DNA of 64,000 nt, from assembly GCF_006489205.2 (NCBI RefSeq), contig NZ_VFYR02000004.1, positions 124,001-188,000 on the forward strand, given 5' to 3'. Numbering within the stretch: the stretch's first letter is position 1; every line of letters starts with the position of its first letter. Positions 9,285-48,447 of this stretch are shown here, piece by piece. This DNA comes from Brevibacterium sp. XM4083. GTDB taxonomy: Bacteria; Actinomycetota; Actinomycetes; Actinomycetales; Brevibacteriaceae. The position numbers and the translations under genes were made by a program. The notes under the pieces were generated by a model. It was not told the origin of the DNA. It made no database searches and saw only the letters and a list, made by a program, of their open reading frames with translations.

Positions 9285-9319
9285 TCGAATCAAGCGCCGC
9301 GGTTTTCACGCGGCACGAG

Positions 9320-9392
9320 AGCCCCGAAAGGGAATCGAACCCTTGACCTTCTCCTTACCATGGAGATGCTCTGCCGACTGAGCTATCGGGGC
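9320..9392 (-). tRNA. tRNA-Thr (GGT)
   Basis: The 73-nt cloverleaf read leftward has acceptor GCCCCGA/TCGGGGC. The anticodon stem TCTCC/GGAGA surrounds loop ATGGTAA with anticodon GGT, and the T arm has GGTTCGATTCC. It lies 35 nt upstream of the tRNA-Met gene and is probably co-transcribed. Confidence 0.93.
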
Positions 9393-9539
9393 AACAGGTA
9401 AGAATTTACACGGGTTTGCGCGACCGGAGCAAATCCGTCCCCGGTGACCTCACTCACAGGCAGCTTCGCCCACGCCCGTCCCCGGCTCGCGCCGGAACCG
9501 CAGTACCATCGGGGCCGCCGCTCGAACCCGCTCGGACGC

Positions 9540-10340
9540 CTACTTCACAGGGTCGAACCGACCCGCGAGGAACCCCTGGAGCCGGCCCGGATGGTTCGTG
9601 ATGATCCCGTCGACCTCGGCGTCGAGGAGTTCCCGCCACTCGTTCATCTCATCGGCCGTCCACACGAACACCCCGAGGTCGTTGTCCCGGATCTCCTTGA
9701 CGATCGACTTCCGCAGCGAGAATCCCCTGAACGACGGATTGATCGCCACCGCACCGAGGCTGCGGGCCGTGGCGATGTCCTCGGGCCGGGGCACCATGCG
9801 CAGGAGGAACCGGGTGACCATCGGCAGCAGGTCCCGGCATGTGGCCAGCGTGTCGGTGTTGAACGCCTGGACGACCATGCGATCGGCGGTGCCGGTCTCG
9901 ACGACGAGTTCGGAGATCCTCGCCACCGCCCCCGGCGACCACTCCCCCTTGAGCTCGAGGAGGAGTTCGCCGCCTCGGTGCTGGATGTCGCGCATCACCG
10001 CCGCGAGCGTCGGGATCCGGATGCCCATGAACCCCGGCCCCATCCACGAACCCGCGTCGACGAACGAGAGCTCCTCAGCCGTGAGCTTGACGACCGGGCC
10101 CTTGCGGTTCGTCGTCCGGTCGAGGTCGGGGTCATGGAGGATGACCGGGACCCCGTCGGCACTCGTCGAGGCGTCGACCTCGATGAAGTCGACGTCGAGC
10201 GCCCTCGCCGCATCGACGGCGGCCAGACTGTTCTCGGGAACGACGGCCGAATATCCGCGGTGGGCGATGACGAGCGGGCGCGTGCCGGAGCCGGGTCGCT
10301 CGGTGATGCCCCGCTCGCGCAGGAACTGGAGAAAGCTCAT
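9540..10340 (-). CDS. glycerophosphodiester phosphodiesterase
   Basis: This 266-residue cytoplasmic GDPD-type enzyme hydrolyses glycerophosphodiesters to glycerol-3-phosphate and an alcohol. Signature parts are LVIAHRGYSAVVPENSLAA (catalytic His and Glu, about residues 24-42), VDFIEVDASTSADGVPVILHD (metal Glu/Asp and second His), LDRTTN, and the C-terminal VFVWTADEMNEW and VDGIITNHP. There is no signal peptide, so it resembles UgpQ rather than periplasmic GlpQ. It is divergent from the transporter gene at 10568. Confidence 0.88.
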   Translation of the reverse strand: MSFLQFLRERGITERPGSGTRPLVIAHRGYSAVVPENSLAAVDAARALDVDFIEVDASTSADGVPVILHDPDLDRTTNRKGPVVKLTAEELSFVDAGSWMGPGFMGIRIPTLAAVMRDIQHRGGELLLELKGEWSPGAVARISELVVETGTADRMVVQAFNTDTLATCRDLLPMVTRFLLRMVPRPEDIATARSLGAVAINPSFRGFSLRKSIVKEIRDNDLGVFVWTADEMNEWRELLDAEVDGIITNHPGRLQGFLAGRFDPVK

Positions 10341-28213: not shown

Positions 28214-28879
28214 CTAGTTCGGCAACGTCGTTCCGGCCAGGCTCAGCGAGGTCGGAGTGCGTCCGTAGTCGGTGACCATCTTGGGGTGCTTGGCCGCGAT
28301 GAGCGAGAGCAGTGTGTCCATGTCCGGATCGACGTAGGAGCGTTGCTCGCCGCTATAGATCATCCTCGTGCTGTCACTGTTGCGCTGTTCGATGGCGTCG
28401 CCGCTGGGATTGAAGCGGAGGACGTCGATGCCGTAGAGCATGCACAGCAGCGTGTTGAAGATGGGCGCAGCTTTGATCCATCGACCGTTGAGGTAGATCC
28501 GTGCGAACCAGTGCAGGAACTCCTCACCTCCGACGAGCTCGTGCATCGCGGCGTCGGCGACGTGGTTGGTGACCACGTCGGAGCACAGCACGGCTGGAAC
28601 TCCGAGCTTGCGGCACCCGGCGACGAACAGAATGCTCTTGTGCAGGCAGAAGCCGGAGGGTTCATCGACAACGTCGGAGGCGCCGAGGTCTGTGTGCAGC
28701 GCGACGTTGAAGACGTTGTAGTCGATAGTGTCGCGGACAGCGTCGTGGAGGCGTTCGACGGCCTTGGCGATATTCGCTTCGCTGTAACAGCCAGCGTCCT
28801 CGACGAACTGCGCAACGCTCGGGGCGTCGTAGTCGAGCACGGCGGTTGCCTGGGTCAGCTGGAGGTCGCGGGCGATCAT
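28214..28879 (-). CDS. transglutaminase-like protein
   Basis: This 221-residue protein has a papain-like/transglutaminase core. The nucleophile Cys is in EPSGFCLHKSILFVAGCRKL (about residue 78) and the His in EEFLHWFARIYLNGRW (about 123). The usual Asp after GRW appears replaced (IKAAPIFN). Transglutaminase homologues in antibiotic pathways, such as AdmF of andrimid, form amide bonds from carrier-protein thioesters, so a product-forming role here is plausible inference. Its ATG overlaps the stop of the acyl-CoA-dehydrogenase-like gene. Confidence 0.75.
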   Translation of the reverse strand: MIARDLQLTQATAVLDYDAPSVAQFVEDAGCYSEANIAKAVERLHDAVRDTIDYNVFNVALHTDLGASDVVDEPSGFCLHKSILFVAGCRKLGVPAVLCSDVVTNHVADAAMHELVGGEEFLHWFARIYLNGRWIKAAPIFNTLLCMLYGIDVLRFNPSGDAIEQRNSDSTRMIYSGEQRSYVDPDMDTLLSLIAAKHPKMVTDYGRTPTSLSLAGTTLPN

Positions 28880-30006
28880 GAGCTCACTCCTAACATGGTG
28901 GCGATCTTAGTGCGCAGGAGGTCATTCGATCCGGAGTAGATCGCTCCGGGGATCGCGTCGAGGAGGTTGCTCGCCAGCGGTGCCGTGGTCAGGTACCCGT
29001 TGCCGCCGTGGACACGGATGGCATTGATCGCCGAGTCGACGTTGGCCTCGCTGATGAAGACCTTGGCCGCGGCGATCGGGACGGTCACGTCCTCGAAGCC
29101 GTCCAGTCGTTCCGCGATAGATTCCAGCAGGGCTCCGCCCAGTTCGATGGCGATCTGGGTCTGCACGATCCGGTCCGCCACCAGCTGATTGCTGCCGATG
29201 CTGCGCCCGAACTGTTTGCGGTCGTTGACATACTGCACTGAGCGGGTGACCAGCTGCTCCATTTCGCCGATATTGCCGGCGAAAGCCAGCAGGATCTCGC
29301 GTTTCATGACCTGGTCGAGGATCAACAGGCCTGCGCCGCTGTGCCCGATCCGGTTGGTGATGGGTACCCTCACGTCCTCCAGCGCGACCTCTCCGATCGG
29401 CGAGGTGGTCAGCCCGGCCGTGGGCAACTGCTGGGAGGTGTCGACACCGGGCCATCCGGTCTCGACGAGGAAGGCTGAGAGCCCCTTGTCGGCGCCGTCT
29501 TCGACGGTCTTGGCGTAGATCACCAAGGTCGAGGCGATCGGTGCGTTGGTGATGAACCGCTTCGCTCCGTTCAGGACGTAGTGGCCGTTGCTGAGGACGG
29601 CAGTGCTCGTCATCTTCATCACGTCTGAGCCGGCGTCGGCCTCGGTGATGGCGTGCCCACCGATGGCGGTGCCGGATTCGGCCGCCGGAAGGTAGCGGTC
29701 CCGCAGTTGTCGATCTGCGAATGCGCGCAGGCAGTAGATGGTACTGGCCAGCTGAGTCACTGCTGAGAAGGTCAGTCCCCGGTCCGGGCTGGTGCGCCCG
29801 AGTTCACGGACCCGGTTGATGGCGGTACTCATCCCTGTGCTGCCAATGCCCTCGGCAGCGAGGAGGCTGAACAGCCCGCTCGCGGCAGCAGCATTCCACA
29901 GTCCCGTTGGAAAGCCATCCTGCCGTGAGGATGGGGTCGTGGGCGTGTACTCGCGCAAATGGTCGAGGAAGCTCGACCATGGGTCGTCGGTCAGAATCGT
30001 GCTCAT
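28876..30006 (-). CDS. acyl-CoA-dehydrogenase-like flavoenzyme
   Basis: This 376-residue FAD enzyme has AITEADAGSDVMKM and YVLNGAKRFITNA (flavin contacts), RKQFGRSIGSNQL, and IRVHGGNGYLT. At the position where most family members carry the catalytic Glu in YEGTN, this sequence reads YSGSND, so the base must be elsewhere or the reaction differs. Beside a stand-alone adenylation enzyme and a carrier protein it is best compared with prolyl- or aminoacyl-carrier-protein dehydrogenases. I infer alpha,beta-desaturation of a carrier-bound amino acid. Confidence 0.8.
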   Translation of the reverse strand: MSTILTDDPWSSFLDHLREYTPTTPSSRQDGFPTGLWNAAAASGLFSLLAAEGIGSTGMSTAINRVRELGRTSPDRGLTFSAVTQLASTIYCLRAFADRQLRDRYLPAAESGTAIGGHAITEADAGSDVMKMTSTAVLSNGHYVLNGAKRFITNAPIASTLVIYAKTVEDGADKGLSAFLVETGWPGVDTSQQLPTAGLTTSPIGEVALEDVRVPITNRIGHSGAGLLILDQVMKREILLAFAGNIGEMEQLVTRSVQYVNDRKQFGRSIGSNQLVADRIVQTQIAIELGGALLESIAERLDGFEDVTVPIAAAKVFISEANVDSAINAIRVHGGNGYLTTAPLASNLLDAIPGAIYSGSNDLLRTKIATMLGVSS

Positions 30007-30017
30007 GCTCGTCCTCC

Positions 30018-30392
30018 TCAGTAGGTGCTGAAACCGCTAGCGCTGAGCACGTGCTTCTCGTCGCCGCGGATCGGCGGGTTGAAGACGCTGACGAGTTCGA
30101 GATCCTCGTGGTCCGATGCCCGCAAGTAGTGGGGCTCGTTGCCGTCCAGGACGTAAACCACGCCGGGAGTAACCTCGAAGAAGTTGCCCTGGGTGTCTTC
30201 GACGTTGCCCGAGCCGCGGATGCAGTAGCAGGCTTCGAGGTTCTTCCGGTACTCGAGCTTGGACTCGGTGCCGGCGCGGACGACGGTGTGGGCCAGGGCG
30301 AAGCCCATGTTGTCGTTCTCGACCAAGAGGCGGTGGCTGGTGCCATTGCCCCACTCGACAGCGGAAACGTCATTCTTGGACCTGGTGAACAT
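30018..30392 (-). CDS. ectoine-synthase-like cupin
   Basis: This 124-residue protein is strikingly like EctC: VEWGNGTSHRLLVENDNMGF, RAGTESKLEYRKNLEACYCI, GVVYVLDGNEPHYLRA, and LVSVFNPPI. EctC cyclises N-acetyl-diaminobutyrate by dehydration. There are no ectA, ectB or ectD genes here; the neighbours are a carrier protein and an acyl-CoA-dehydrogenase-like enzyme. I infer it closes a ring, perhaps a cyclic amidine or imine, in a secondary metabolite. Length is normal for EctC (about 125-135). Confidence 0.83.
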   Translation of the reverse strand: MFTRSKNDVSAVEWGNGTSHRLLVENDNMGFALAHTVVRAGTESKLEYRKNLEACYCIRGSGNVEDTQGNFFEVTPGVVYVLDGNEPHYLRASDHEDLELVSVFNPPIRGDEKHVLSASGFSTY

Positions 30393-30448
30393 GGAGGTAC
30401 TCCTTTTCTTCTAGAAGGGATTTCGGTGATGGTTGGTCGTGATGGAGG

Positions 30449-30709
30449 TCAGGAGGCCAAAGCGTCGGTCCGGTTGGCCGCGATGAAGCCGGTGATGCCT
30501 TCGGGAGTCTTCAGCTCGTCCGGGTTGATAGGGATCGTGTTGATCGGAATCTTGTAGGTCCGGGCACACCAGCCCAACAGCTGGACGGTGGTGACGCTGG
30601 TGAGAATGCCGGTCGTGAGCAGGTCGACATCGTCGGGCAACTGGTCAGCGGTGATATCGGTGGCAAAAGTCTCGACAATGTACTGCTTGACCTCGTGGAT
30701 GGTGGACAT
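30449..30709 (-). CDS. acyl/peptidyl carrier protein
   Basis: This 86-residue four-helix carrier protein has the phosphopantetheine site Ser in TTGILTSVTTVQLL (about residue 38; the usual D-S reads T-S). It is acidic, as expected. It starts three bases after the stop of the adenylation gene, so the two probably function as a loading pair activated by the divergent phosphopantetheinyl transferase at 32221. Confidence 0.85.
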   Translation of the reverse strand: MSTIHEVKQYIVETFATDITADQLPDDVDLLTTGILTSVTTVQLLGWCARTYKIPINTIPINPDELKTPEGITGFIAANRTDALAS

Positions 30710-30712
30710 TCG

Positions 30713-32074
30713 TTACTCGCTTTCTACGTGTGACTTGATGGTGGGCAGATCAGGTTTGCCGTTGCCGTTCAAGGGAAAGGGGCCGTCGAAGGCATGCAGC
30801 TGGTTCGGCATCGCGAAGGCAGGTAAGTGAGCGCTCATCGCCATGCGAAGCTGGAACCCGTTGACGAGGCGGCCATGGTCGGGCACAGTGTAGGCCAGAT
30901 GCAGCTTCTCGTCGGAACCGGAGTTCTCTAACCACGCGCAGGCCATGCCGACCAGGGCCGTCCGGCGCGCGCAATGCTCGATCTCTTCGAGATTCACGCG
31001 CTGCCCGCGGACTTTGACCATGCGGTCGCGGCGGCCCTGGTACATCAGGTGCCCGCTTGACCAGCTGGCCTCATCCTTCATCGGGTACAGGCCCTCCCCG
31101 GTCAGCGGCAAGGGAGCGATGGTTCCCTCAGCGATGTAGCCGAGCGCCATCCACGGCGTGCGTACGAGCAGTTCCCCGTCCATGGCTTCCTCAGCCGCGT
31201 GAAGGCGGGCCAGGTCTCCGTCGGCGTCGAGGTAGACCTCGCAACCGGAGATGGGTTTGCCGATCGGTAACGTCTCAGCGGCGGCGAACTGCTCGGCCGA
31301 GAGTGTCTCGATGAGGCAGTCGTTGACCTCAGTGGCGCCATAGACGTTGTGGAACGTTGCTGTGGGGAACAGGCGCGTCGCGGCGGCACGCAGGGGTTGT
31401 GCCACGACGCCGCCGGTGAGGACGACGTCGTGAACCGAGGGGTACTCCGCATCCCTTGCGGCGTTGAGCAGTGCGTCTAGTGTGGAGGGAACGACCTGGA
31501 CGAACGTCGGTCGGTACTCATCGAGCATCCGGGTCAGGTATGCCGCGTCGTGCAGTCGCGCTGCCTCCGCTGCCACCACCGTGCCGCCGGCGACCAGAAC
31601 GGCCCAGGTGTCGAGGAGGGAGACGTCGAAGTTCCAGGGGCTCAGACTCAACGAGACCGTCGCGTCCTCGAAGCCGAAGTACTCGCTGCCCCAGTTCAGG
31701 AAGTGAGCCAGACCTGTCACGGGGAGGGCGACGAGCTTGGGTGCTCCCGTCGAGCCGGAGGTGGGCAGAGCGAGCACGCCGCCCTCCGAAGCGTTCGTGG
31801 AGGTCGAGCGTGTTCTGGCGAACTGTTCGACCTGCTCGGCGATCGTCTCCACGTAGGCGGCGGAGGCCGAGGTGGGCACCAGCGCTGCAACTCCTCCCCT
31901 GTTGAGAAGGCTGACGCACTCATCGATGAGGTGACGGTTCTTCGCCGCGCGGTAGATGCCGTACTCACGACCAGTGATGTCGTCCTTGCGCTCGTCTTCG
32001 CCTTCGACGATGGTGCCTGGTTCCAGGCTCAGGCCAGTCACCGCAGTATGGACGCTCGTGACTGTCATGCTCAT
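30713..32074 (-). CDS. stand-alone adenylation enzyme (amino-acid activating)
   Basis: This 453-residue AMP-forming synthetase has A3 PTSGSTGAPK (about 104-113), A4 SPWNFDVSLLD with the Asp that binds an amino-acid amine, A5 NVYGATE (245-249), A8 RRDRMVKVRGQRVNLEEIE, and A10 NGNGKPDLP. It is shorter than usual because the first 90 residues are reduced. It probably loads an amino acid onto the downstream carrier protein. It leads the leftward biosynthetic operon, with AGGGG five bases before the ATG and MarR-type sites upstream. The FDV start of the specificity code is also seen in proline-activating domains, but I do not assign a substrate. Confidence 0.85.
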   Translation of the reverse strand: MSMTVTSVHTAVTGLSLEPGTIVEGEDERKDDITGREYGIYRAAKNRHLIDECVSLLNRGGVAALVPTSASAAYVETIAEQVEQFARTRSTSTNASEGGVLALPTSGSTGAPKLVALPVTGLAHFLNWGSEYFGFEDATVSLSLSPWNFDVSLLDTWAVLVAGGTVVAAEAARLHDAAYLTRMLDEYRPTFVQVVPSTLDALLNAARDAEYPSVHDVVLTGGVVAQPLRAAATRLFPTATFHNVYGATEVNDCLIETLSAEQFAAAETLPIGKPISGCEVYLDADGDLARLHAAEEAMDGELLVRTPWMALGYIAEGTIAPLPLTGEGLYPMKDEASWSSGHLMYQGRRDRMVKVRGQRVNLEEIEHCARRTALVGMACAWLENSGSDEKLHLAYTVPDHGRLVNGFQLRMAMSAHLPAFAMPNQLHAFDGPFPLNGNGKPDLPTIKSHVESE

Positions 32075-32153
32075 GCTGTCCCCTTCCGTGTTCGTTGCGC
32101 GTCGAGCCGATCGGCCCGGATCGGATCCGGTCTGATCACCTCGAATGTTCTTC

Positions 32154-32198
32154 GATGTACATGCATTAACCTAGACTAGTGCTTGTGCATACATCAAG
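32154..32198. promoter_or_regulatory. candidate MarR operators C and D in the cluster 1 divergent promoter
   Basis: GATGTACATGCATTAAC (32154-32170) and CTTGTGCATACATCAAG (32182-32198) lie between the leftward adenylation operon and the rightward phosphopantetheinyl transferase. Site C shares ATGTACATGCA with site B; site D is a near palindrome related in inverse orientation. Confidence 0.6.
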
Positions 32199-32220
32199 GT
32201 TTAACGGCGAAAACGCCAAA

Positions 32221-32769
32221 ATGTGTCATAGATCACCGTCGCCCCTCCGTCTCTGGACGGCCTCCTGGCACAGCGGCGATGACGTTGCCGCGCTCCTTGT
32301 CGAACGAGCACTCGGGACCGAGGCCAGGCGCTATTTCCGCAGTTCAGACCGGTGTTTTCCTCTTTGTTACGAGGACAAGTACTTCTCGGTCTCACACTCC
32401 GCACTGACCGCCGCGGTAGTGGTCGCCGACGTGCCGGTCGGAGTCGACATCGAACAGCGACTCTCTTCGCCCGGGTGCGCGGACCTTGCCTGTGCCTGGT
32501 CGCCTGGCGAGCGTGCTGAACTCCAAGGCGAGGTTGCCGTCGAGCGTGTCTCCACCGAGATCTGGACGGCGAAGGAGGCCGCTGGCAAAGCCCTCGGGGT
32601 GGGATTGCAGGCGATGCCCTCAGCTATTGAGTCATCTCCTGTGCTCACTGCCGCCGCGCACAGGACCATCGTGATGCCCTCGGCGGTCGGGGAGCTCGTC
32701 CACCTGGACTCACATGGCATGTGGCACGGTGAGAGCCATCTCCGGATCGCATGGAGGCAGGACAGTTAG
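32221..32769 (+). CDS. Sfp-type 4'-phosphopantetheinyl transferase
   Basis: This 182-residue enzyme attaches phosphopantetheine from CoA to carrier-protein Ser. Motifs are FSVSHSALTAAVVVAD, VPVGVDIEQ (metal Asp/Glu) and IWTAKEAAGKALGVGL. It is short for the Sfp group, lacking much of the N-terminal half. ATG 32221 is preferred to the GTG at 32179, which would lie inside operator D. It is divergent from and presumably co-regulated with the adenylation-carrier operon it serves. Confidence 0.83.
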   Translation: MCHRSPSPLRLWTASWHSGDDVAALLVERALGTEARRYFRSSDRCFPLCYEDKYFSVSHSALTAAVVVADVPVGVDIEQRLSSPGCADLACAWSPGERAELQGEVAVERVSTEIWTAKEAAGKALGVGLQAMPSAIESSPVLTAAAHRTIVMPSAVGELVHLDSHGMWHGESHLRIAWRQDS

Positions 32770-36572: not shown

Positions 36573-37175
36573 ATGCATGAACCTCGCGCCGCTCGGCGCA
36601 CCGATGCAGTCAGGAACACCGAGCGCATCGTCGAAGCTGCAGCACTCCAGCTTCGGCAGAGACCGGACGCGACGATGACCAGCATCGCTCGTGTAGCAGG
36701 GGTCGGACGCGCCACGCTTTACGGGCACTTCGAGTCCCGTCGCGACCTCGTCGACGCAGCACTTGCCAGAGAGTTCTCGGAGGCCCAGCGCGCGCTCGAC
36801 ACCATGACCGGTGACCCGGACTCCGCGCGGGCATTGGAAAATGTACTCAATCGAAGCTGGCAACTCATGGACCAGTCGCGTTCCCTGGTCATCGCTGCAT
36901 GCGAAGAACTGTCACCAGAACGACTGTGGGAATTGCACGAGGTTCCAGCCGCGAGAATCACAGCCCTGATACAGCGAGGCCAAGACGCGGGTACGTTCCG
37001 CACCGACCTCCCTATGTGGTGGCTCATCGCGGCCATTCACCGGATCTTCCACGCGACGCCCGGTGATTTCGGAGTCCGACGCACCGATCCCTCGCAGATG
37101 CCTGCCGTCATGACCGAAACGGTGCTCGCCCTACTGCACAGGCCCACGTCCTCACCTCAGGAAGTGCCCCAATGA
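36573..37175 (+). CDS. TetR-family regulator leading the cluster 2 operon
   Basis: This 200-residue TetR protein has the helix-turn-helix TSIARVAGVGRATLYGHFES at about residues 34-53. It is related to the TetR at 20905. ATG 36573 follows GGAGG by eight bases. Its stop overlaps the NRPS start (ATGA at 37172), so the regulator is co-transcribed with the genes it probably controls. GTAT(N8)ATAC at about 36514-36529 in the promoter is a weak operator candidate. Confidence 0.85.
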   Translation: MHEPRAARRTDAVRNTERIVEAAALQLRQRPDATMTSIARVAGVGRATLYGHFESRRDLVDAALAREFSEAQRALDTMTGDPDSARALENVLNRSWQLMDQSRSLVIAACEELSPERLWELHEVPAARITALIQRGQDAGTFRTDLPMWWLIAAIHRIFHATPGDFGVRRTDPSQMPAVMTETVLALLHRPTSSPQEVPQ

Positions 37176-40165
37176 ACTCGCTGACCAACTCCTCGTATGT
37201 TCTCGATCAGGTTGTCCACCATGGGCAGGCCGGTCCCAGTGCCATCGCACTCATCCACGGGGCAACTCAGATCAGCTATGGCGACTTGGTCAGCCGGGTA
37301 AGCCAAGCTGCCGAGGCATTACGTGCGCACCGCTGGGAGGCCGGGTCGACAGTCATGGTGGCGTTGCCACGCGGCCCCGAACAGATCATCACGCTGCTCG
37401 CCGCATGGGCCGTCGGTCTGACTGTCGTCCCCGTTGATCCGGATGATCCCACCGAGCGACAAACGGCCATTCGCAGCGCCACAGGGGCTGTAGCCACGAT
37501 CACCCTCGCCGGATACGAGCCTACTGACGAGGTGCGCGCCACCCGGATCAAGGACCATTGCACCGTCCCGGACGAGGCCCGCGCAACAGCACCGGGCGCA
37601 TATGCGATCTTCACGTCCGGTTCGACCGGCACGCCTAAAGGAGTTCTGGCATCACACGAAGCTTTCGCTGATCTGATCAAACACCTCGTCAGTCGTTATG
37701 CCATCACCCGCGATGATCGCGTGTTGCAGTTCGCGGCTCCCACGTTCGACACGGCGCTGGAGCAGATCGGGGTCACCCTTGCCGCGGGAGCTACGCTGGT
37801 CCAACCCGATACGCCATGGGCTCCCTCGGAGTTTGCAGACCAGCTGGCACTCTATCGAGTGACCGTCATGGATCTGACTCCGAGCTACTGGCGCGCTGTC
37901 GCTGTCCACGCGGCATCGAGCGTGTCGCATCAAGACCTTTCCGTGCGGCTCGCGATCCTCGGCGGCGCGGCGGTGTCGAATCACGACCTCATCGATGTGA
38001 GCACCCACTATCCGCGCGCCCGGATCATCAATGCCTATGGGCTCACCGAGACTGGCATCACTTCGTGTCTGGCTGAGCCGGACATTTCGTCCCTCCCTGA
38101 AACCGGGCCTGCTGCCGTCGGCGCACCAATCGAGGGTGCTCATGTCGTGGTCATCGACGACAATCACACACCTGTCCCACACGGCACGATCGGCCACGTT
38201 GCCATTGGAGGACGGCTCGCGCTCGGCTCGCTGAGCGACAGTGGCACGCTGACTCCGTTGGCCACGATCGCAGTCGGCGAAGAACCTGTGTATCTCACCG
38301 GTGATACGGGGTATCTGGACACAGCTGGCCACCTCGTGATCGATGGTCGTTCGGATCGTCAGATCAAGATCCGTGGTTTCCGCGTCAGCCCGGACGAGAT
38401 CGAGAACGCGATCCGACGCCACCCGGCTATTTGCGATGTCGCCGTCATCGCTGATGCCTCGGCACTGCGGCTTCACGCGTTCTACACTGTGGCGCTCGGC
38501 AACCCTGACCCTGGTGGCGCCAGCCTGATCGAGACGGCACGCGCCACGCTACCGAGTTACTGCATCCCGAATCATGCGACAGCGCTCGACGCGCTTCCCC
38601 AGACGCCACACGGAAAGACCGACTACCGAACACTCGAACTCATCGCGCCCTCGAGCGCGGACTCTACGTCTCCCGTGCGACCACAAGCGCGTGAGTCGGC
38701 AATCGAGCGAGCGGTTGCGACCGTGTGGACAGATGTTCTCGAGATCGACGTTGCCCAGCTGGGCGCTTCATTCTTCGATGCCGGAGGCACCTCAATCGCC
38801 GCTGCCGAACTCGTCGCACGCACCCGTTCGAGTCTCGGTATCCATGTTCGCTTCGCACGGGCACTCATCGAACGTCTCCTGACCAATCCGACGTTTTCCG
38901 CCTACTGCATCGCTGTCGCCGAGGCCCGCGCAGGCATCCTGCAGGCCGGTGCAAGCCCTCAAGAGCTAATGGATGCTGACCTTCGCCGTCCCGCCCCGAT
39001 CGTCAAGCAGCCGTATGCAGCATCACCGCTCACCTCAGCATCGGCCGCTGTCCTCACCGGGGCTACCGGGTTCCTCGGCGCTCACCTTCTGCCGCGTCTT
39101 CTTAGCCGAACTTCCGCGCGGGTGGCGTGTTTGGTTCGCGCGGAAACCGAAGACGCCGCCCGCGAGCGCCTAATGGCAGCGTGGCAGAAGTACGACTCTG
39201 CCTCAGACATCCCCGAGCACGCTCTCGACCGTATCGATGTCATCCTCGGCGACCTCGCCCAGCCCTCCCTGGGACTCACCGAATCTGCGTTCGACGCGTT
39301 GGCCAACCGGACGGACATGGTGTTCCATTCCGGCGGAACGGTTAACTTCATCTACCCCTACGCAGAGATGAAAGCAGCGAACGTCGACGGAACCTACGAA
39401 CTCCTACGACTCGCCGCCCGTCGCGGCGCACCATTCCACCATGTCTCCACTATGGCCGTCATCGCCGGACACGGCATCGTCAACAACAGGAAACAGATCC
39501 ACGAGGACGACACGCTGGGGCATCTGAATCAACTGGGCGTCGGGTACGTCGAGAGCAAATGGATCGCCGAGCACCATGTGCGTCGAGCCGCCGAAGCAGG
39601 GCTGCCTGTGGGAATCTACCGAGCCGCAGACATTTCAGGCCACTCCTCGCGAGGGACCTGGAACACATCCACGGAGATGTGTTGCATGAAGCGGTTTATC
39701 CGCGATGTCAACGCCGTTCCGGTCGCCGAACTGCCGATGGACTACACACCTGTCGACGTGTTCGCCGACGCAATGGTCCACATTGCGACGACCCAGCCGG
39801 CCAATGGACGTGTTTTCCACCTCACGAACCCGAACAAGTCACACATCTCCGTCCTCCAAGACCGTTTGCAGGCGCGCGGTCATCCCGTCAAAGAGGTCCC
39901 CTGGGACGAGTGGGTCACCCACATGATCGACCTCGCCGTGACCGACCCGCAACACCCTATGACGCCGTTCGCACCCCTGTTCATCGATCGCTGTCCCGGT
40001 GGGCAGATGAGCGTTGCCGAGATGTATCTGGAAGACACCTACCCGGATTTCACACGTACGAACGTCGAAGATGCGCTAGCGGGAACCGACATCACCTTCC
40101 CAGAGGTCGACGGTCCGCTCATCGATCGGTACCTCGATTTCCTCGAACGAAAGGACTTCCTGTGA
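37172..40165 (+). CDS. single-module NRPS: adenylation, carrier, thioester reductase (A-T-R)
   Basis: This 997-residue enzyme activates an acid, holds it as a thioester and releases it as an aldehyde or alcohol. The adenylation domain (about 15-500) has FTSGSTGTPKG, APTFDTALEQ with the amine-binding Asp of amino-acid domains, NAYGLTETG, YLTGDTGYL, GRSDRQIKIRGFRVSPDEIE, and PHGKTDYR. The carrier Ser is in DAGGTSIAAAE (about 541). The reductase has NADPH-binding LTGATGFLGAH (about 629-639) and the YVESK catalytic Tyr/Lys (about 791-795). There is no condensation domain. It is shorter than carboxylic acid reductases (about 1,170), the main alternative. Confidence 0.9.
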   Translation: MNSLTNSSYVLDQVVHHGQAGPSAIALIHGATQISYGDLVSRVSQAAEALRAHRWEAGSTVMVALPRGPEQIITLLAAWAVGLTVVPVDPDDPTERQTAIRSATGAVATITLAGYEPTDEVRATRIKDHCTVPDEARATAPGAYAIFTSGSTGTPKGVLASHEAFADLIKHLVSRYAITRDDRVLQFAAPTFDTALEQIGVTLAAGATLVQPDTPWAPSEFADQLALYRVTVMDLTPSYWRAVAVHAASSVSHQDLSVRLAILGGAAVSNHDLIDVSTHYPRARIINAYGLTETGITSCLAEPDISSLPETGPAAVGAPIEGAHVVVIDDNHTPVPHGTIGHVAIGGRLALGSLSDSGTLTPLATIAVGEEPVYLTGDTGYLDTAGHLVIDGRSDRQIKIRGFRVSPDEIENAIRRHPAICDVAVIADASALRLHAFYTVALGNPDPGGASLIETARATLPSYCIPNHATALDALPQTPHGKTDYRTLELIAPSSADSTSPVRPQARESAIERAVATVWTDVLEIDVAQLGASFFDAGGTSIAAAELVARTRSSLGIHVRFARALIERLLTNPTFSAYCIAVAEARAGILQAGASPQELMDADLRRPAPIVKQPYAASPLTSASAAVLTGATGFLGAHLLPRLLSRTSARVACLVRAETEDAARERLMAAWQKYDSASDIPEHALDRIDVILGDLAQPSLGLTESAFDALANRTDMVFHSGGTVNFIYPYAEMKAANVDGTYELLRLAARRGAPFHHVSTMAVIAGHGIVNNRKQIHEDDTLGHLNQLGVGYVESKWIAEHHVRRAAEAGLPVGIYRAADISGHSSRGTWNTSTEMCCMKRFIRDVNAVPVAELPMDYTPVDVFADAMVHIATTQPANGRVFHLTNPNKSHISVLQDRLQARGHPVKEVPWDEWVTHMIDLAVTDPQHPMTPFAPLFIDRCPGGQMSVAEMYLEDTYPDFTRTNVEDALAGTDITFPEVDGPLIDRYLDFLERKDFL

Positions 40166-40938
40166 GCCTCAACTGGCAACGCATCGCTCACGCAACCGAG
40201 CTCGACAACGGACCCCTCGCCTTTGGCAGCGACGTTTCCGCGAGCCGTCTCCACGCTGCCGCACTCGCCGGGTTCTACTGTTTTCCCACGGCGACCTACG
40301 AACAGACACTCCTCAACGAGATGCGCTACGGTGCCGACGTAGACACCGGCGTTCGCACGATTGCCGTCAATGACCCTGATCCCTACTCGGTCGCGTGGCT
40401 GAACCCAGACCCGCGGCCCGTCATCGATCTGACCTCGCGCGGTGCCGGCCGTAGCATGCGTCGTCTCGCACGACGCCACGGACAATGGCGCACCACAATC
40501 GATGTCGCGTTCGATGACGTCGTGACCAGATGCGCCCAGCACCGGGGCAGCAGCTGGATCACCAGCGCGCTCCGCAAATCACTGCGGAATCTACATGACG
40601 CTGGAGTCGCCCACAGCTGCGAAGTCTGGGATGACGATCAGCTCATTGGCGGCGTCTTCGGTCTGCGACTCGGTGCCGTGTTCACCGCCGACTCACAGTT
40701 CACGGCCGTCGAAGGAGCGGGAAAGCTTGCCGTAGTCGATCTCATGACTAGATTCGCACAAAGTGGAGGCACTTTGCTCGACCTTCAGCACGACACGCCC
40801 CATGCCCGAACTCTGGGAGCAACCGCTATGCCTCGATCGTCATATCTCACCGCCCTCCAACGACTGAACACCCAACGGACCATAATCTCTAGCGAAGCTC
40901 GCTCTGCCAAGCACATCGCGGAGTTGAACACCGCATGA
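40162..40938 (+). CDS. leucyl/phenylalanyl-tRNA-protein transferase homologue (Aat-like)
   Basis: This 258-residue protein matches the Aat family: AWLNPDPRPVIDL, SMRRLARRHGQWRTTIDVAF, SSWITSALRKSLRNLHDAGV, AHSCEVWDDDQLIGGVFGLR, FTAVEGAGKLAVVDLM, and LLDLQHDTPHARTLGA. Aat normally moves Leu or Phe from its tRNA to protein N-termini for ClpS-dependent decay. Here it sits directly behind an A-T-R NRPS (GTGA overlap at 40162), far from any clp gene. I infer it adds an aminoacyl group from tRNA to the carrier-bound amino acid, replacing a condensation domain. Confidence 0.85.
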   Translation: MSLNWQRIAHATELDNGPLAFGSDVSASRLHAAALAGFYCFPTATYEQTLLNEMRYGADVDTGVRTIAVNDPDPYSVAWLNPDPRPVIDLTSRGAGRSMRRLARRHGQWRTTIDVAFDDVVTRCAQHRGSSWITSALRKSLRNLHDAGVAHSCEVWDDDQLIGGVFGLRLGAVFTADSQFTAVEGAGKLAVVDLMTRFAQSGGTLLDLQHDTPHARTLGATAMPRSSYLTALQRLNTQRTIISSEARSAKHIAELNTA

Positions 40939-41699
40939 GCAACTCGACCCAAACCTTCTCACTCGCGTATCGCCCCGACCTCGCAGCCAGTTTCCTCTCG
41001 TTGGACGTTGCCTGGCCTGCCTTCATCGAACCCTCGCGGCTTCTCGTCAATTGGGGTCTCGACGTTCACTCCCAGTACCAGCTCGTCGTACTCGATCAGG
41101 AAACCACTGTCGCCCGAGTAGCAGCCCTGCCTATCCAATGGGACGGCCACCCTGACTCGCTGCCCGACCGGGGATGGGACGGCATCGTCGAGCAATCCGT
41201 CACTGATACCCATCGCGGTGCGGCCCTCAATACGCTGTGCGCCCTCGAAGTGGGTGTCAGCAGCAACCACGCTGGGCGTGGCCTCTCACGTACGGCCCTG
41301 ACGGCTTTGCGCGACGAAGCACGCCGTCTGGGCTTCGAGCACCTGATCGTGCCTGTGCGCCCCACGGGCAAGGCCGAACGCCCAGACGAACCAATCGATA
41401 GCTACGTTGCTCGACGTCGCGACGACGGTTTCCCGGTGGACAACTGGCTCCGTGTCCATGAACGCCTCGGAGCACGAATGGTCGGTCTCTGTCCAACCGC
41501 GATGACGGTCGTCGCACCCATCTATCGGTGGCGACAGTGGACAGATTTGCCTTTCAACCGGTCCGGTGTGATCACCGTTCCCGGCGGAATCGCCCCAGTA
41601 ACGGTCAACCACGAGCTCGACTACGCCGCCTACGTCGAACCCAACGTCTGGATGGAACATCCGCTGACGTCACCCGCACAATCCGAAAGGACACTCTGA
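40935..41699 (+). CDS. GNAT-type acyltransferase
   Basis: This 254-residue protein has GNAT features in the middle (LNTLCALEVGVSSNHAGRGL, SRTALTALRDEARRLGFEHL), where the NHAGRG loop resembles the acetyl-CoA pyrophosphate site. The C-terminal part is unrecognised. It starts at ATG 40935 overlapping the Aat-like stop. GNAT folds also occur in tRNA-dependent amino-acid transferases, so acetyl-CoA may not be the donor. Substrate unknown. Confidence 0.65.
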   Translation: MSNSTQTFSLAYRPDLAASFLSLDVAWPAFIEPSRLLVNWGLDVHSQYQLVVLDQETTVARVAALPIQWDGHPDSLPDRGWDGIVEQSVTDTHRGAALNTLCALEVGVSSNHAGRGLSRTALTALRDEARRLGFEHLIVPVRPTGKAERPDEPIDSYVARRRDDGFPVDNWLRVHERLGARMVGLCPTAMTVVAPIYRWRQWTDLPFNRSGVITVPGGIAPVTVNHELDYAAYVEPNVWMEHPLTSPAQSERTL

Positions 41700-42721
41700 T
41701 GACTGCACTCGAGGACCGCGACTCCGTCATTCAACTGATCGGCGGATACATTGTCTCCAATGCCATCCGCGCCGCGGGGGATTTCGGCATCTTCTCTCTG
41801 CTCGATGTCGATGACGGACTCACTTTGACCGAGGTAGCCCTTGGCGCGCGCATCGACGAAGCGCACCTCATCAGGTTGCTCCGCACCTTGCAACAGGCCC
41901 ACCTTGTCGAAGAGGCCGGGAACCGATTTCACCTCACTTCACCGGGTCGACTGCTGGTGCCTGAACGCGAAGGGACGCTGGCCAACTTCGCTCGGAACTT
42001 CACCAGTCCACTCTTCCAGCGCTCCTGGGACTCCCTGGAGGAGACCTTGCGCACCGGGACACCTGGCTTTTTTCTCGTCAACCAGCAAAGCATCTACGAC
42101 TACTTCGCTGAGGATGATGCTGCGAACGCCCTGTTCAACGGCGCGATGCAAGAGGAAGCAGCCGCGACCGCCACCGCTGCCACCACCATCATCACGCTCG
42201 CCGAGAACGAGAGGGTCATCGACCTCGGCGGAGGCGATGGCACCTTCCTCACCAAGCTGCTCCAAGCGAACCCCACTGCAACCGGAACCGTCTTTGACAG
42301 CCCTGCCGGCATCGCGAACGCCCCCAGTGTCATCGATCGTTCCAGTGTCGCCAACCGGTGCGACTTCCAGGCCGGGGACTTCTTCACTGCCATCCCCAGA
42401 AACGGCACCACCTACATTCTCAAGAGCGTCCTACAAGACTGGGATGACGAACGCGCCTACCAAATCCTGCGAACCTGCGCAGAACAGGTTCCCGCCGGCG
42501 CGAGACTGATAATCATCGGCAACTTCATCCCTGACGACTTCGATCGCAATGCCGCGGTCGGATATCTCACCGACATGTGCATGCTCGTCATCAGTGGCGG
42601 TCGGGAACGCACGCTCGACGATCTACGTCGCCTCCTAGACCGCGCGGGACTGCCGACCGCGTCCCTGTCCCACCGCCGCGTAGGACCGCTTACCGCTGTC
42701 GAACTCACGAGCGCGCCATGA
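41699..42721 (+). CDS. SAM-dependent O-methyltransferase
   Basis: This 340-residue enzyme is of the two-domain plant-type/antibiotic O-methyltransferase family. An N-terminal winged-helix dimerisation domain (SNAIRAAGDFGIFSLLD, LIRLLRTLQQAHLVEE) precedes the SAM domain with VIDLGGGDGTF at about 174-184 and AGDFFTAIP. The conserved LHDW before the active site reads LQDWDDE, so the usual His base is a Gln. It overlaps the GNAT stop by one base (TGATG). It probably methylates a hydroxyl of the pathway's cyclic intermediate. Confidence 0.88.
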   Translation: MTALEDRDSVIQLIGGYIVSNAIRAAGDFGIFSLLDVDDGLTLTEVALGARIDEAHLIRLLRTLQQAHLVEEAGNRFHLTSPGRLLVPEREGTLANFARNFTSPLFQRSWDSLEETLRTGTPGFFLVNQQSIYDYFAEDDAANALFNGAMQEEAAATATAATTIITLAENERVIDLGGGDGTFLTKLLQANPTATGTVFDSPAGIANAPSVIDRSSVANRCDFQAGDFFTAIPRNGTTYILKSVLQDWDDERAYQILRTCAEQVPAGARLIIIGNFIPDDFDRNAAVGYLTDMCMLVISGGRERTLDDLRRLLDRAGLPTASLSHRRVGPLTAVELTSAP

Positions 42722-44358
42722 CGCAGACCACCCGCCCGTTCGATCCTGCTTCGGTTCTGGACCAGATCCTCTCCGGGCATCGACCAAGGCGAACAGCAGA
42801 GCAACCAACTCGCCCTACCCTCACTGCAGAAGAAGACGCCTTCCTTGACTCCGTCAGTAAGTGGTGTGCGCGGGGTGACCTCACTACCCGTATCGAATCC
42901 TCGTTGCAGATTCCTGACGACATCATTGCCGAACTCAGCAAACTGGGCGCATTTCGCATCACGATTCCCCAACAGTATGGCGGCCTTGGTTTTTCTGACT
43001 CCTGCTTGCTCGGGGCATTAGCGATCCTCTCAGCTACACACGCGACCTTGTGTGAGGTTGTCGCCGCTCATCAGGTGGTCGGGGCAGTCCGTCCGCTCAT
43101 AGAGTTCGGCACCGCCGAGCAGCGCAATCGTTATCTGCCAGAACTCACACAGACTTCGTCTGCTTTCGCTCTCAACGAAGCAGCTGTCGGCTACGGGCTT
43201 GGCCCGCTAGGCACCACAGCGTGGTTCGACACCGAGATCAACTGCTATCGCATTTCCGGCACCAAGACTTGGATCACCAATGCGACCATCGCGACCCATG
43301 CAATCGTTGTAGTCGATGTCGCCCCGACACCACTTTCACCCGGAGGAGTAACCGCGCTGCTAATCAAATCCGACGACGTCGGAGTCACGCAGGGCCCGCT
43401 CAGTAGCTTCGCCGGAATGCGGGGACTGCCCAACGGACGTATCCGTCTTGATGACGCCCGCATCCCCGCAGATCGAGTCGTCGGTGCAGAAGGGCACGGT
43501 TTCGACGTGGTCCTCGGCTGTCTGAAACAGTGCCGTGCCGCTCTCCCCGTCGTGTGCCTTATGACAATCACGACATGCTTGCGCTCGGCGTCTAAGTGGG
43601 CGCAGGAGGAGCGCCAGGCCGACCGCGGCCTGCCTACCAACCCGCAGATCCAGGAACTCCTCGCTGACCTCATGGCAACGTCGACCGCTGCCAACGCCGT
43701 CGCCTGGTTCATACTTGACCGACATTGTGCGCCGACCGACGCCGAAGCCGCCAAACTCATACTCAGTGAACTTGCGTCACACGCGACCGACACGCTCCTC
43801 CAAATAGTCGGAGGCCGAGGATATGAAACGGCGTCCTCAGCCATCGCCCGCGACGATCCTCCGTTCGACATCGAACGTCTCTGGCGAGACACGCGCGTAA
43901 CCCGCATCTTCGACAGCTCAACCCAAATGATCAAAGACGCCCTTGGCCAGCCCCTCGCTCAACCCCAGAGCACGCCACCTCTACCCGACTCCGAAAGCAC
44001 CGACGCGACATCGTGGATCGCTGACCAAAGCGAGTTGCTCCGGCAAGCACGCTCGGCGCACCCGGAGAATGCGCACCGGCGTGCCATCGCGGTCAACTGC
44101 GCCTTGGAAATCTTCGTCGCGTACTGCGTCGAAGAGTACCGAACCTATCTCGGCGAACATCAAACTCCCACCACAACAGCTTGGACCGCGGTCCTTAACG
44201 AACTGCAGTCGCGACTTGACGGCCTTCTCCGTGACCTGAACGACGATCAACGACACAGAAGGCGAATGAGCCTGGCCGCTGAACTCACTGCTAGGCCCGA
44301 CCTGCACGGTCGCAGTGCCTTTACTCATCCGCTCTACGAGATTGGCGCCAACCGATGA
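42718..44358 (+). CDS. acyl-CoA-dehydrogenase-like flavoenzyme with C-terminal extension
   Basis: The first 400 of 546 residues form an acyl-CoA-dehydrogenase fold (FRITIPQQYGGLGFSDS, FALNEAAVGYGLG, YRISGTKTWITNA, GPLSSFAGMRGLPNGRIRLD, IVGGRGYETASS). At the usual YEGT catalytic position it reads FDSST, with Asp in place of Glu. A further 130 residues of helical character follow (ALEIFVAYCVEEYRTYLGEH). It overlaps its neighbours by ATGA on both sides. I infer oxidation (desaturation or aromatisation) of the cyclised or carrier-bound intermediate. Confidence 0.78.
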   Translation: MTQTTRPFDPASVLDQILSGHRPRRTAEQPTRPTLTAEEDAFLDSVSKWCARGDLTTRIESSLQIPDDIIAELSKLGAFRITIPQQYGGLGFSDSCLLGALAILSATHATLCEVVAAHQVVGAVRPLIEFGTAEQRNRYLPELTQTSSAFALNEAAVGYGLGPLGTTAWFDTEINCYRISGTKTWITNATIATHAIVVVDVAPTPLSPGGVTALLIKSDDVGVTQGPLSSFAGMRGLPNGRIRLDDARIPADRVVGAEGHGFDVVLGCLKQCRAALPVVCLMTITTCLRSASKWAQEERQADRGLPTNPQIQELLADLMATSTAANAVAWFILDRHCAPTDAEAAKLILSELASHATDTLLQIVGGRGYETASSAIARDDPPFDIERLWRDTRVTRIFDSSTQMIKDALGQPLAQPQSTPPLPDSESTDATSWIADQSELLRQARSAHPENAHRRAIAVNCALEIFVAYCVEEYRTYLGEHQTPTTTAWTAVLNELQSRLDGLLRDLNDDQRHRRRMSLAAELTARPDLHGRSAFTHPLYEIGANR

Positions 44359-45002
44359 CCCCCGCGATCCCTAGCGCCACCCTAATCGCCAATCCGCTGG
44401 CAACTATGATCCGCGCTGGCGACCTCACTCCGGAGGCACTGTGCCCCTTGCCGCAACATCTCGACGAACTCGTGTCAGCCAACTTCGCCTCAGCCACGCT
44501 CATGTTGCAACGTCATCGAGGCTCGCCCTTGGCCAGTTTCTATAAAGGCAACGTCGCCGTGGAACAGGAAGCACACCAGCTCCTCACCCCATTGCTCCAG
44601 GCCTTCAAACTGACTCGTGACGGATCTGCTTCTTTCGATGCTCTGGCCCTCGCTTATCCCGGCTTGATCGCACGAATCGCCGTATCAGGAACCCCATGGG
44701 ACTACCCCGTGGCGTTTCTCCACCTGTGCCGACCCTCTACCCTCAACTACTTGCAACTGCACGAGGCGCTGAGCGCCACCGGCGCCTTCAGCGAACTGGA
44801 ACTCGAACACTTCGCCTTCTTCGGCCACATAGAGGACGAAGAAATCGCTACAGTCCAGCAGCTAGTCACCGACGCTCCAGCAGACGCACTCGGCCGCGCG
44901 TACGCATTGGCGCAACAGCTGGCAACGCTGGAGCAAGTCTTCTGGGAGCGCATGGTCGTCCTCTGCACTGCGAAGGGAGCAACCAGTGACAGGCCTTCAT
45001 GA
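44355..45002 (+). CDS. unrecognised cluster 2 protein, possibly heme-oxygenase-like fold
   Basis: This 215-residue, mostly helical protein has no confident family. HFAFFGHIEDEEIATVQQLV (about 152-171) and an earlier GNVAVEQEAHQLLTPLLQAF resemble the Glu/His/Asp-bearing helices of heme-oxygenase-like diiron or TenA/PqqC-type enzymes, but this is only a visual impression. It overlaps the dehydrogenase stop (ATGA) and the PPOX gene (17 bases), so it belongs to the pathway. Confidence 0.6.
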   Translation: MTPAIPSATLIANPLATMIRAGDLTPEALCPLPQHLDELVSANFASATLMLQRHRGSPLASFYKGNVAVEQEAHQLLTPLLQAFKLTRDGSASFDALALAYPGLIARIAVSGTPWDYPVAFLHLCRPSTLNYLQLHEALSATGAFSELELEHFAFFGHIEDEEIATVQQLVTDAPADALGRAYALAQQLATLEQVFWERMVVLCTAKGATSDRPS

Positions 45003-45558
45003 GGTATCCGTGCATAGCAGTCCCGACCTCCTTGAACGCGCCGTCGCCATCATTCGGCAGGCCGGCTACCTCACCTTGGCAACCGTCAATCCGGCTGGTG
45101 CTCCCTGGGCCGCCCAACTACAGTATGCCTGGTTCGCTTCTCCGCTTAGCCTAGTCGTGGGATCCCACGTCGCTACCCGCCATTCAACAGATATCGCTGT
45201 GACACACCAAGCCGCCGCAGCTGTGTCGCTCCTGCCGGGAATGCCTGAGGGACCTGATGGACTCCAGGTTGCTGGACGCTGCACCGCACTCGCTGGCCCT
45301 GCCCTGGCCGAGCGAGTCGCCTACTTTTACCGACAGATGCACCCCGATCCTGCCAAAGCCTCCGAACTCGCACTTCGGCCAGAACAGCTCAGCGGTGACG
45401 CGATGCTTCGGCTATATGAACTACGCATGGAAGAAGTGTGGATCCTCGACCTCGACCGCTGGGCCCACGAGCAGATATCCGATCGAGTTCAGCTTGATCC
45501 GCAAGCAGTCAGTGAGGCTCTTCGTCGAGCGACGTCGCCAGAATATGCGCAGCGGTGA
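44986..45558 (+). CDS. pyridoxamine-5'-phosphate-oxidase-like flavoprotein
   Basis: This 190-residue split-barrel protein has AGYLTLATVNPAGAPWAAQL at the start and LVVGSHVATRHSTDIAVT, typical of PPOX/FMN-binding families. It may bind FMN or F420 and perform an oxidation or reduction in the pathway. The GTG at 44986 lies inside the preceding gene. Its last 50 bases overlap the end of the convergent phosphopantetheinyl transferase gene. Confidence 0.75.
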   Translation: MTGLHEVSVHSSPDLLERAVAIIRQAGYLTLATVNPAGAPWAAQLQYAWFASPLSLVVGSHVATRHSTDIAVTHQAAAAVSLLPGMPEGPDGLQVAGRCTALAGPALAERVAYFYRQMHPDPAKASELALRPEQLSGDAMLRLYELRMEEVWILDLDRWAHEQISDRVQLDPQAVSEALRRATSPEYAQR

Positions 45559-46201
45559 ACACCATCCCATTGCGCACGCTCCACCGACCGACCAGGTCCT
45601 TCGCGCTAACGCCGGATCGACGGAAGTCGTCAACGAAGTGCGCAGAGAATGACCCCGATACCGGGTCAATATCCAGGCAACAGTCTGGATAGTTGATCCA
45701 CTGGCCCGTAACCGGGAACCAGGCTTTGAATACGGCCTCTTTTGCGCTGAACAACACCCGGTCCCATGAGATCGTTCGATCCACGCTGCGGAGCCGTGGC
45801 AGCATGTCAACTTCGCGCTCGGTTGCGATCACGTCCAGTACTCCGGACGGGAGCGTCGAATCCGGTTCGACATCGATGCCCAGCGCGCGAAGCTTGGTGG
45901 ATCGCGCGACAGCGGCGGCCCTCATGCCGGAACAGTGCGTCAGGCTCCCCACGACCCCTACCGGCCAGATGGGCTCTCGATGCGCTCCACACGGAATCTC
46001 AACCCCTGTGTAGCCAAGTCCCTCCAGAGCTGCCCGCGCACATTCGCGCGTCGTTCGGAACTCAACACGACGCTCGGGGCTTACGTGCTTGATGACGGCT
46101 TCCTCCAGCGGCCAGTGCCTCGCAACTGGTCGGTCCTCGCCGGTCGCAACGATACTGACGCATTCCGGCAACAGAACGCCAAACTCCGACCGCACCACCA
46201 T
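45509..46201 (-). CDS. EntD/Sfp-type 4'-phosphopantetheinyl transferase
   Basis: This 230-residue enzyme resembles EntD: PIWPVGVVGSLTHCSGMRAA, LRALGIDVEPD (metal Asp/Glu), and VLFSAKEAVFKAWFPVTG. It probably activates the carrier domain of the cluster 2 NRPS. It converges on the operon and overlaps the PPOX gene end by 50 bases, which favours long-standing association. This is the second such enzyme in the window. Confidence 0.88.
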   Translation of the reverse strand: MVVRSEFGVLLPECVSIVATGEDRPVARHWPLEEAVIKHVSPERRVEFRTTRECARAALEGLGYTGVEIPCGAHREPIWPVGVVGSLTHCSGMRAAAVARSTKLRALGIDVEPDSTLPSGVLDVIATEREVDMLPRLRSVDRTISWDRVLFSAKEAVFKAWFPVTGQWINYPDCCLDIDPVSGSFSAHFVDDFRRSGVSAKDLVGRWSVRNGMVFTAAHILATSLDEEPH

Positions 46202-48378: not shown

Positions 48379-48447
48379 GCGGGTTCAAGGGGTGGACGCA
48401 ACACTTCCTCTCTGAAAGGAAGTGTTGCGTCCACCCCTTGAACCCGC
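48379..48447. repeat. perfect 30-bp inverted repeat with 9-nt spacer
   Basis: Left arm 48379-48408 and right arm 48418-48447 are exact complements, separated by TCTCTGAAA. The arms contain AGTGTTGCGTCCACCCC, similar in style to IS30-type ends. It may be two abutted IS ends or a strong hairpin. No gene is attached. Confidence 0.8.

Follow-up and report, generated by a model that had tools for sequence, protein, structure and literature searches.

The window analysed here is a stretch of 64,000 nucleotides that carries, between positions 36573 and 46201, a cluster of nine genes, all with clean reading frames:

36573..37175, + strand: TetR-family regulator (PF00440, 32.1 bits), whose stop codon overlaps the start of the NRPS gene (ATGA)
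37172..40165, + strand: A-T-R NRPS of 997 amino acids (PF00501, PF00550 and PF07993; TIGR01746 Thioester-redct, 273 bits)
40162..40938, + strand: divergent Aat-like L/F-tRNA transferase of 258 amino acids with a GTG start (PF03588, 140 bits)
40935..41699, + strand: GNAT N-acyltransferase of 254 amino acids (PF00583, 18.8 bits)
41696..42721, + strand: PF00891 (Methyltransf_2) methyltransferase (125 bits), in which LQDW replaces LHDW
42718..44358, + strand: acyl-CoA-dehydrogenase-like (ACAD-like) flavoenzyme of 546 amino acids (Acyl-CoA_dh_1/M/N)
44355..45002, + strand: predicted TENA/THI-4/PQQC-type (TenA-like) helical protein of 215 amino acids, assigned via its homologue at the Streptomyces locus L046
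44986..45558, + strand: PNPOx-like (PPOX) flavin/F420-type protein of 190 amino acids (PF01243, PNPOx_N, 32.4 bits)
45509..46201, − strand: Sfp/PptT-type phosphopantetheinyl transferase (PPTase; 4PPT_N, 77 bits; ACPS, 50 bits)

The eight plus-strand genes form one overlapping chain. Six of its seven junctions are start/stop overlaps of 1–4 bases (ATGA, GTGA, CTGATG), the remaining one is an overlap of 17 bases, and the convergent PPTase gene overlaps the PPOX gene by 50 bases. The open reading frames and Pfam matches bear out the inventory of nine genes, the overlapping chain and the convergent PPTase given in an earlier, sequence-only reading of this DNA.

IS30-type transposase genes occupy the left flank of the cluster (33.5–35.5 kb), and IS110- and rve-type transposases the right flank (47.7–50.2 kb). 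The GC content of the cluster is 61.6%, compared to 65.3% on its left and 67.2% on its right, and among 41 genomes examined in the genus, only 7 (its own included) contain a match to the PPTase. The cluster thus forms a GC-poor island flanked by IS elements, which, together with the restricted distribution of the PPTase, suggests horizontal acquisition. Because of the same restricted distribution, the PPTase is plausibly an accessory enzyme serving the T domain of the NRPS. Just left of the IS30 element, the region 28879–32766 encodes a prolyl-PCP-dehydrogenase-like ACAD (PigA model, 274.9 bits, under the cut-off of 500), an amino-acid adenylation protein of 453 residues and another member of the PPTase superfamily, possibly representing another small NRPS-type cluster or its remnant. 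The right-hand IS region contains a 34-nt near-perfect palindrome (48379–48447; 97%, 1-nt loop).

The NRPS consists of an A domain (186 bits), a T domain (28 bits) and an R domain (208 bits). The Pfam profile search found no condensation (C) domain in the protein, in agreement with the sequence-only reading. The T-domain serine is present (GGTS), and the R domain contains the motifs TGATGFLG and YxxxK. We extracted the ten specificity residues of the A domain via alignment to known core motifs and obtained the code DTEDIGAITK. The comparison of codes took in 11 A-T-Rs, with those of loci L086 and L088 left out, and the code is invariant among them: ten other Aat-paired A-T-Rs, 38–46% identical to the window NRPS, share it exactly. 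A 2025 survey of Arg-activating codes lists Asp235, Ala/Val236, Glu239, Asp278, Ile/Val/Leu299, Gly301, Ala322, Val/Ile330, Thr/Asp331 and Lys517 (PMC12283262). Given that the window code agrees with this consensus (D-A/V-E-D-I/V/L-G-A-V/I-T/D-K) at 9 of 10 positions, the A domain is predicted to load arginine as its building block. A literature search for the literal string DTEDIGAIT returned no match.

The cluster Aat is a member of the Leu_Phe_trans family (PF03588, 140 bits against a cut-off of 22.7) and scores just under the threshold of the housekeeping equivalog model TIGR00667 (139.6 versus 143.55 bits). In the alignment, it retains the catalytic Asp and Gln of the LxDxQ motif, and the invariant Glu of ESMF is replaced by Asp (DSQF). 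The same replacement is found in every A-T-R-linked Aat examined, and an extra segment after FP is likewise common to the cluster Aat and the A-T-R-linked Aats. In the phylogenetic tree, the NRPS-linked Aats, including the window copy, lie on one side of a branch with a support of 94/99; the window Aat itself forms a long branch, the exact position of which among them is not firmly resolved. A second, housekeeping Aat is encoded on a different contig of the same genome. Each of 56 other genomes of the genus contains one Aat, and none of these (0/56) is of the cluster type. The cluster Aat is distinct from the housekeeping N-degron enzyme. When a plasmid collection was searched with the Aat, only housekeeping-type relatives of less than 40% identity were retrieved, and a scan of genome contigs gave a single match, which was housekeeping-like, came from a MAG and was 43% identical.

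The Aat of E. coli naturally adds Leu or Phe to N-terminal Arg or Lys. This rationalizes why Arg-S-PCP would be a natural acceptor for an enzyme of this family, and by analogy we infer that it is the acceptor of the cluster Aat.

The pairing of an A-T-R with an Aat recurs elsewhere, as the sequence-only reading had proposed to check: we found 13 further loci. An Aat of the cluster type is present in 9 of 199 sampled Streptomyces genomes. Seven of the nine genes have counterparts at the Streptomyces locus L046, namely those for the NRPS (46% identity), Aat (47%), GNAT (49%), methyltransferase (40%), ACAD-like enzyme (38%), TenA-like protein (~30%) and PPOX protein (36%); this locus additionally encodes a P450 and an MFS transporter. 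The order GNAT–methyltransferase–ACAD after the NRPS–Aat pair is the same in L046 and in the window. The recurrence of the pair in 13 further loci and the joint occurrence of seven genes in L046 argue that the A-T-R/Aat association is not due to chance. Locus L085 (genome G835) contains a minimal NRPS–Aat–GNAT trio, without the methyltransferase and ACAD-like genes.

Eight Streptomyces loci (L047–L053 and L075) and three loci from another family (L086–L088) encode an A-T-R and an Aat, with no matches to the GNAT, methyltransferase or ACAD-like protein. These Aat-linked A-T-Rs form a second class, which has the same Arg code wherever the code was extracted. The A-T-R of L047 carries a fused MbtH domain, as confirmed by Pfam. 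A gene for a protein of ~1100 amino acids lies beside second-class A-T-Rs, and in L050 it encodes a PAS-GGDEF-EAL protein. Since the second-class loci contain no gene for a capping enzyme, they are better candidates for producing arglecin-type pyrazinones or free dipeptide aldehydes, which may act as signals.

Two further Aat contexts were observed in Streptomyces L054 (G657) and in L074 (G481). In L054, an Aat homologue lies beside a free-standing condensation domain, an A-T protein and an A-T-C protein, and its other neighbours are an SDR, an IspD-like cytidylyltransferase and a GHMP kinase; C domains are thus kept in this different combination of Aat and NRPS. The L054 Aat, grouped with the others by its NRPS neighbourhood, retains the Glu of ESMF. 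In L074, an orphan Aat (9292–9984), 50% identical to the window Aat, adjoins a DNA cytosine methyltransferase-like gene; no cluster-type A-T-R was found in that genome.

The window GNAT scores just under the PF00583 cut-off of 20.7 bits and is 49% and 41% identical to the GNATs of L046 and L085, respectively, both of which adjoin an A-T-R/Aat pair. Its putative substrate is the free amine of a dipeptide aldehyde. The GNAT family is broad: 72 of the 395 genomes in the class encode a member, elsewhere without a conserved context, and it was therefore dropped as a marker of the cluster. In the methyltransferase, a Gln (LQDW) aligns with the catalytic His of the LHDW/LHNW motif of CalO6, DtpM and MmcR, and the L046 homologue likewise has QDW. 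Because of this replacement, it is uncertain whether the enzyme would perform classic O-methylation. The ACAD-like enzyme has an Asp (RIFD) where ACAD9 has the Glu of IFEGT, and Asp is also found in L046. The 215-residue protein, listed as an unknown in the sequence-only reading, has no direct Pfam match. Its L046 homologue, ~30–31% identical, matches PF03070 with 31.3 bits (cut-off 22), from which we assign the window protein to the TENA/THI-4/PQQC family, to which it probably belongs. Its AlphaFold model, built from two sequences, is poor (pLDDT 53), and a Foldseek search with this model gave nothing at E ≤0.001; the top-ranked entry was a TenA with an E of 0.17.

A C-less A-T-R paired with an L/F transferase has been described by Aguilar et al. 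(2023) in the livipeptin cluster of S. lividans 66 (Sli0883–0887, MIBiG BGC0001168), which encodes an A-T-R (Sli0883), an L/F transferase (0884), an N-acyltransferase (0885), an O-methyltransferase (0886) and a butyryl-CoA dehydrogenase (0887) (PMC10548850). In E. coli extracts, Sli0883–0885 gave rise to inhibition of trypsin and papain. All three proteins were required: the NRPS–transferase pair alone produced no inhibitor activity in the absence of the acyltransferase (PMC10548850). RNase abolished the inhibitor activity, a result that applies to Sli0883–0885 only (PMC10548850). The livipeptin A domain was predicted to be specific for arginine, the L/F transferase was proposed as a substitute for the C domain, and the livipeptin product itself is a predicted structure (PMC10548850). 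The gene trio of L085 matches the three-gene livipeptin core of this published reconstitution.

Judging from its sequence, the window quite probably contains a divergent livipeptin-type cluster, in which the Aat replaces the C domain and which directs synthesis of an N-acyl-Leu/Phe-argininal that is further tailored. The PPTase would arm the T domain of the NRPS, and the A domain, according to its code, would load arginine. The Aat-like enzyme would then take Leu or Phe from its tRNA and attach it to the amine of Arg-S-PCP, for which no C domain would be needed, and the R domain would release Leu/Phe-argininal. By acylating the free amine, the GNAT would stabilize a protease-inhibiting peptide aldehyde and block its cyclization to a pyrazinone. 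The methyltransferase, the ACAD-like enzyme, the TenA-like protein and the PPOX protein would act later as modifiers, and the TetR protein would regulate the operon. Because an acyl-dipeptide-aldehyde requires none of these four modifiers, the final product would have to be more elaborate. We refer to the His-less methyltransferase, the Asp-type ACAD, the TenA-like protein and the PPOX protein as the conserved tailoring set. It is conceivable, though rather doubtful, that this set makes a new scaffold from Leu/Phe-argininal, which might be an oxidized heterocycle methylated at N or C; the unstable ‘livipeptin’ activity would then stem only from an intermediate of the pathway.

The sequence-only reading had favored a pyrazine or methoxypyrazine product. 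In a related scheme, Leu/Phe-argininal would cyclize, the flavoenzymes would oxidize it to a pyrazinone resembling arglecin, N- or O-methylation would follow, and the GNAT would serve in side-chain acylation or self-protection. Free-amine dipeptide aldehydes do cyclize, the cluster encodes several redox enzymes and a methyltransferase, and arglecin (Leu-Arg) and argvalin (Val-Arg) are Streptomyces pyrazinones assumed to have this origin (PMC11212599). However, N-acylation would block the very amine that must cyclize, and the need for the acyltransferase in livipeptin activity fits a capping step (PMC10548850). In addition, the flavoenzymes would not be required, given that aromatization can be spontaneous, and the methyltransferase lacks the His of LHDW. 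We therefore consider a pyrazinone unlikely. The arginine code also speaks against a small alkylmethoxypyrazine: any pyrazinone would be cationic and arglecin-type, not volatile. In the literature search, nothing linked a methoxypyrazine or pyrazinone with an L/F transferase. The code, the presence of a putative capping GNAT and the LQDW motif thus argue against the product originally proposed.

A simpler scheme, in which the NRPS alone makes argininal, two molecules of which condense to a symmetrical pyrazine while the Aat acts separately, is suggested by the Xenorhabdus indica ATRed, which forms a pyrazine from two phenylalaninals (PMC7586950). The tight coupling of the Aat to the A-T-R, both here and in 13 other loci, and the RNase dependence of the livipeptin system (PMC10548850) make this scheme very improbable. 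We give still less credence to the cluster Aat being an ordinary N-degron enzyme that lies beside the NRPS by chance. It does belong to the same Pfam family and keeps the catalytic residues, but its gene overlaps its neighbours, the Glu-to-Asp change is common to A-T-R-linked Aats, and the single Aats of the congeneric genomes are not of this type. The housekeeping copy on another contig likewise argues against a cluster Aat acting only on protein N-termini, a case that the sequence-only reading had raised. Just as implausible is the other case it had raised, in which the NRPS would function as a carboxylic acid reductase on a substrate other than an amino acid. Such reductases have the same A-T-R order, and the NRPS matches their equivalog model NF041592 weakly (153 bits; cut-off, 1300); in contrast, the amino-acid-adenylation model TIGR01733 gives 278 bits, and the code is an Asp235-type amino-acid code of the Arg type.

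We conclude that the cluster is real and well-formed, and that the idea of an Aat in place of a C domain is sound but does not constitute a new pyrazine route. What finds support in the original proposal is the Aat as condensation catalyst, with which a single A domain suffices for a product of two residues; the principle is not novel, having been published as livipeptin (PMC10548850). With this cluster, the rare logic of recruiting an N-degron enzyme as the peptide-bond former of an NRPS is no longer confined to Streptomyces and its relatives, but reaches a smaller actinobacterium, on an island flanked by IS elements. As all eleven paired A domains examined share the arginine-type code, a possible reason for the recruitment is that Aat already joins Leu and Phe to Arg. 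Being homologous but divergent, and having a conserved tailoring set, the cluster provides a useful comparison for solving the livipeptin structure.

AusA (aureusimine) and ATRed likewise release an amino or peptidyl aldehyde by reduction, as proposed for the window. Unlike the window system, AusA uses a condensation domain, ATRed has no donor of a second residue, and both operate without an Aat and without an N-acyl cap. The GNAT-fold aminoacyl-tRNA transferases VlmA, PacB and DhpH similarly use aminoacyl-tRNA donors in natural-product pathways, but they are grouped with FemX-type enzymes rather than PF03588 and do not act on A-T-R NRPSs (PMC12945691). E. coli Aat (PDB 2z3k, 2cxa) and the window Aat have in common the fold family, the catalytic Asp and Gln and the presumed Leu/Phe-tRNA donors. 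In contrast to the E. coli enzyme, the presumed acceptor of the window Aat is Arg-S-PCP rather than a protein N-terminus, and the window Aat features the Glu-to-Asp change in ESMF and the extra segment after FP. Compared to the five kinds of gene in the published livipeptin cluster, the window additionally encodes the TenA-like, PPOX, TetR and PPTase proteins. It belongs to a different actinobacterial order from S. lividans, and is only 30–49% identical to its closest full homologue found, L046. Of the characteristics of the livipeptin cluster, a C-less A-T-R, an adjacent non-housekeeping L/F transferase and an Arg-type A domain are found in the window, and a dependence on tRNA would be shared as well. 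According to the published description, from which this likeness is drawn, the livipeptin genes are consecutively numbered, and both clusters combine the A-T-R and the L/F transferase with an N-acyltransferase, an O-methyltransferase and an acyl-/butyryl-CoA dehydrogenase.
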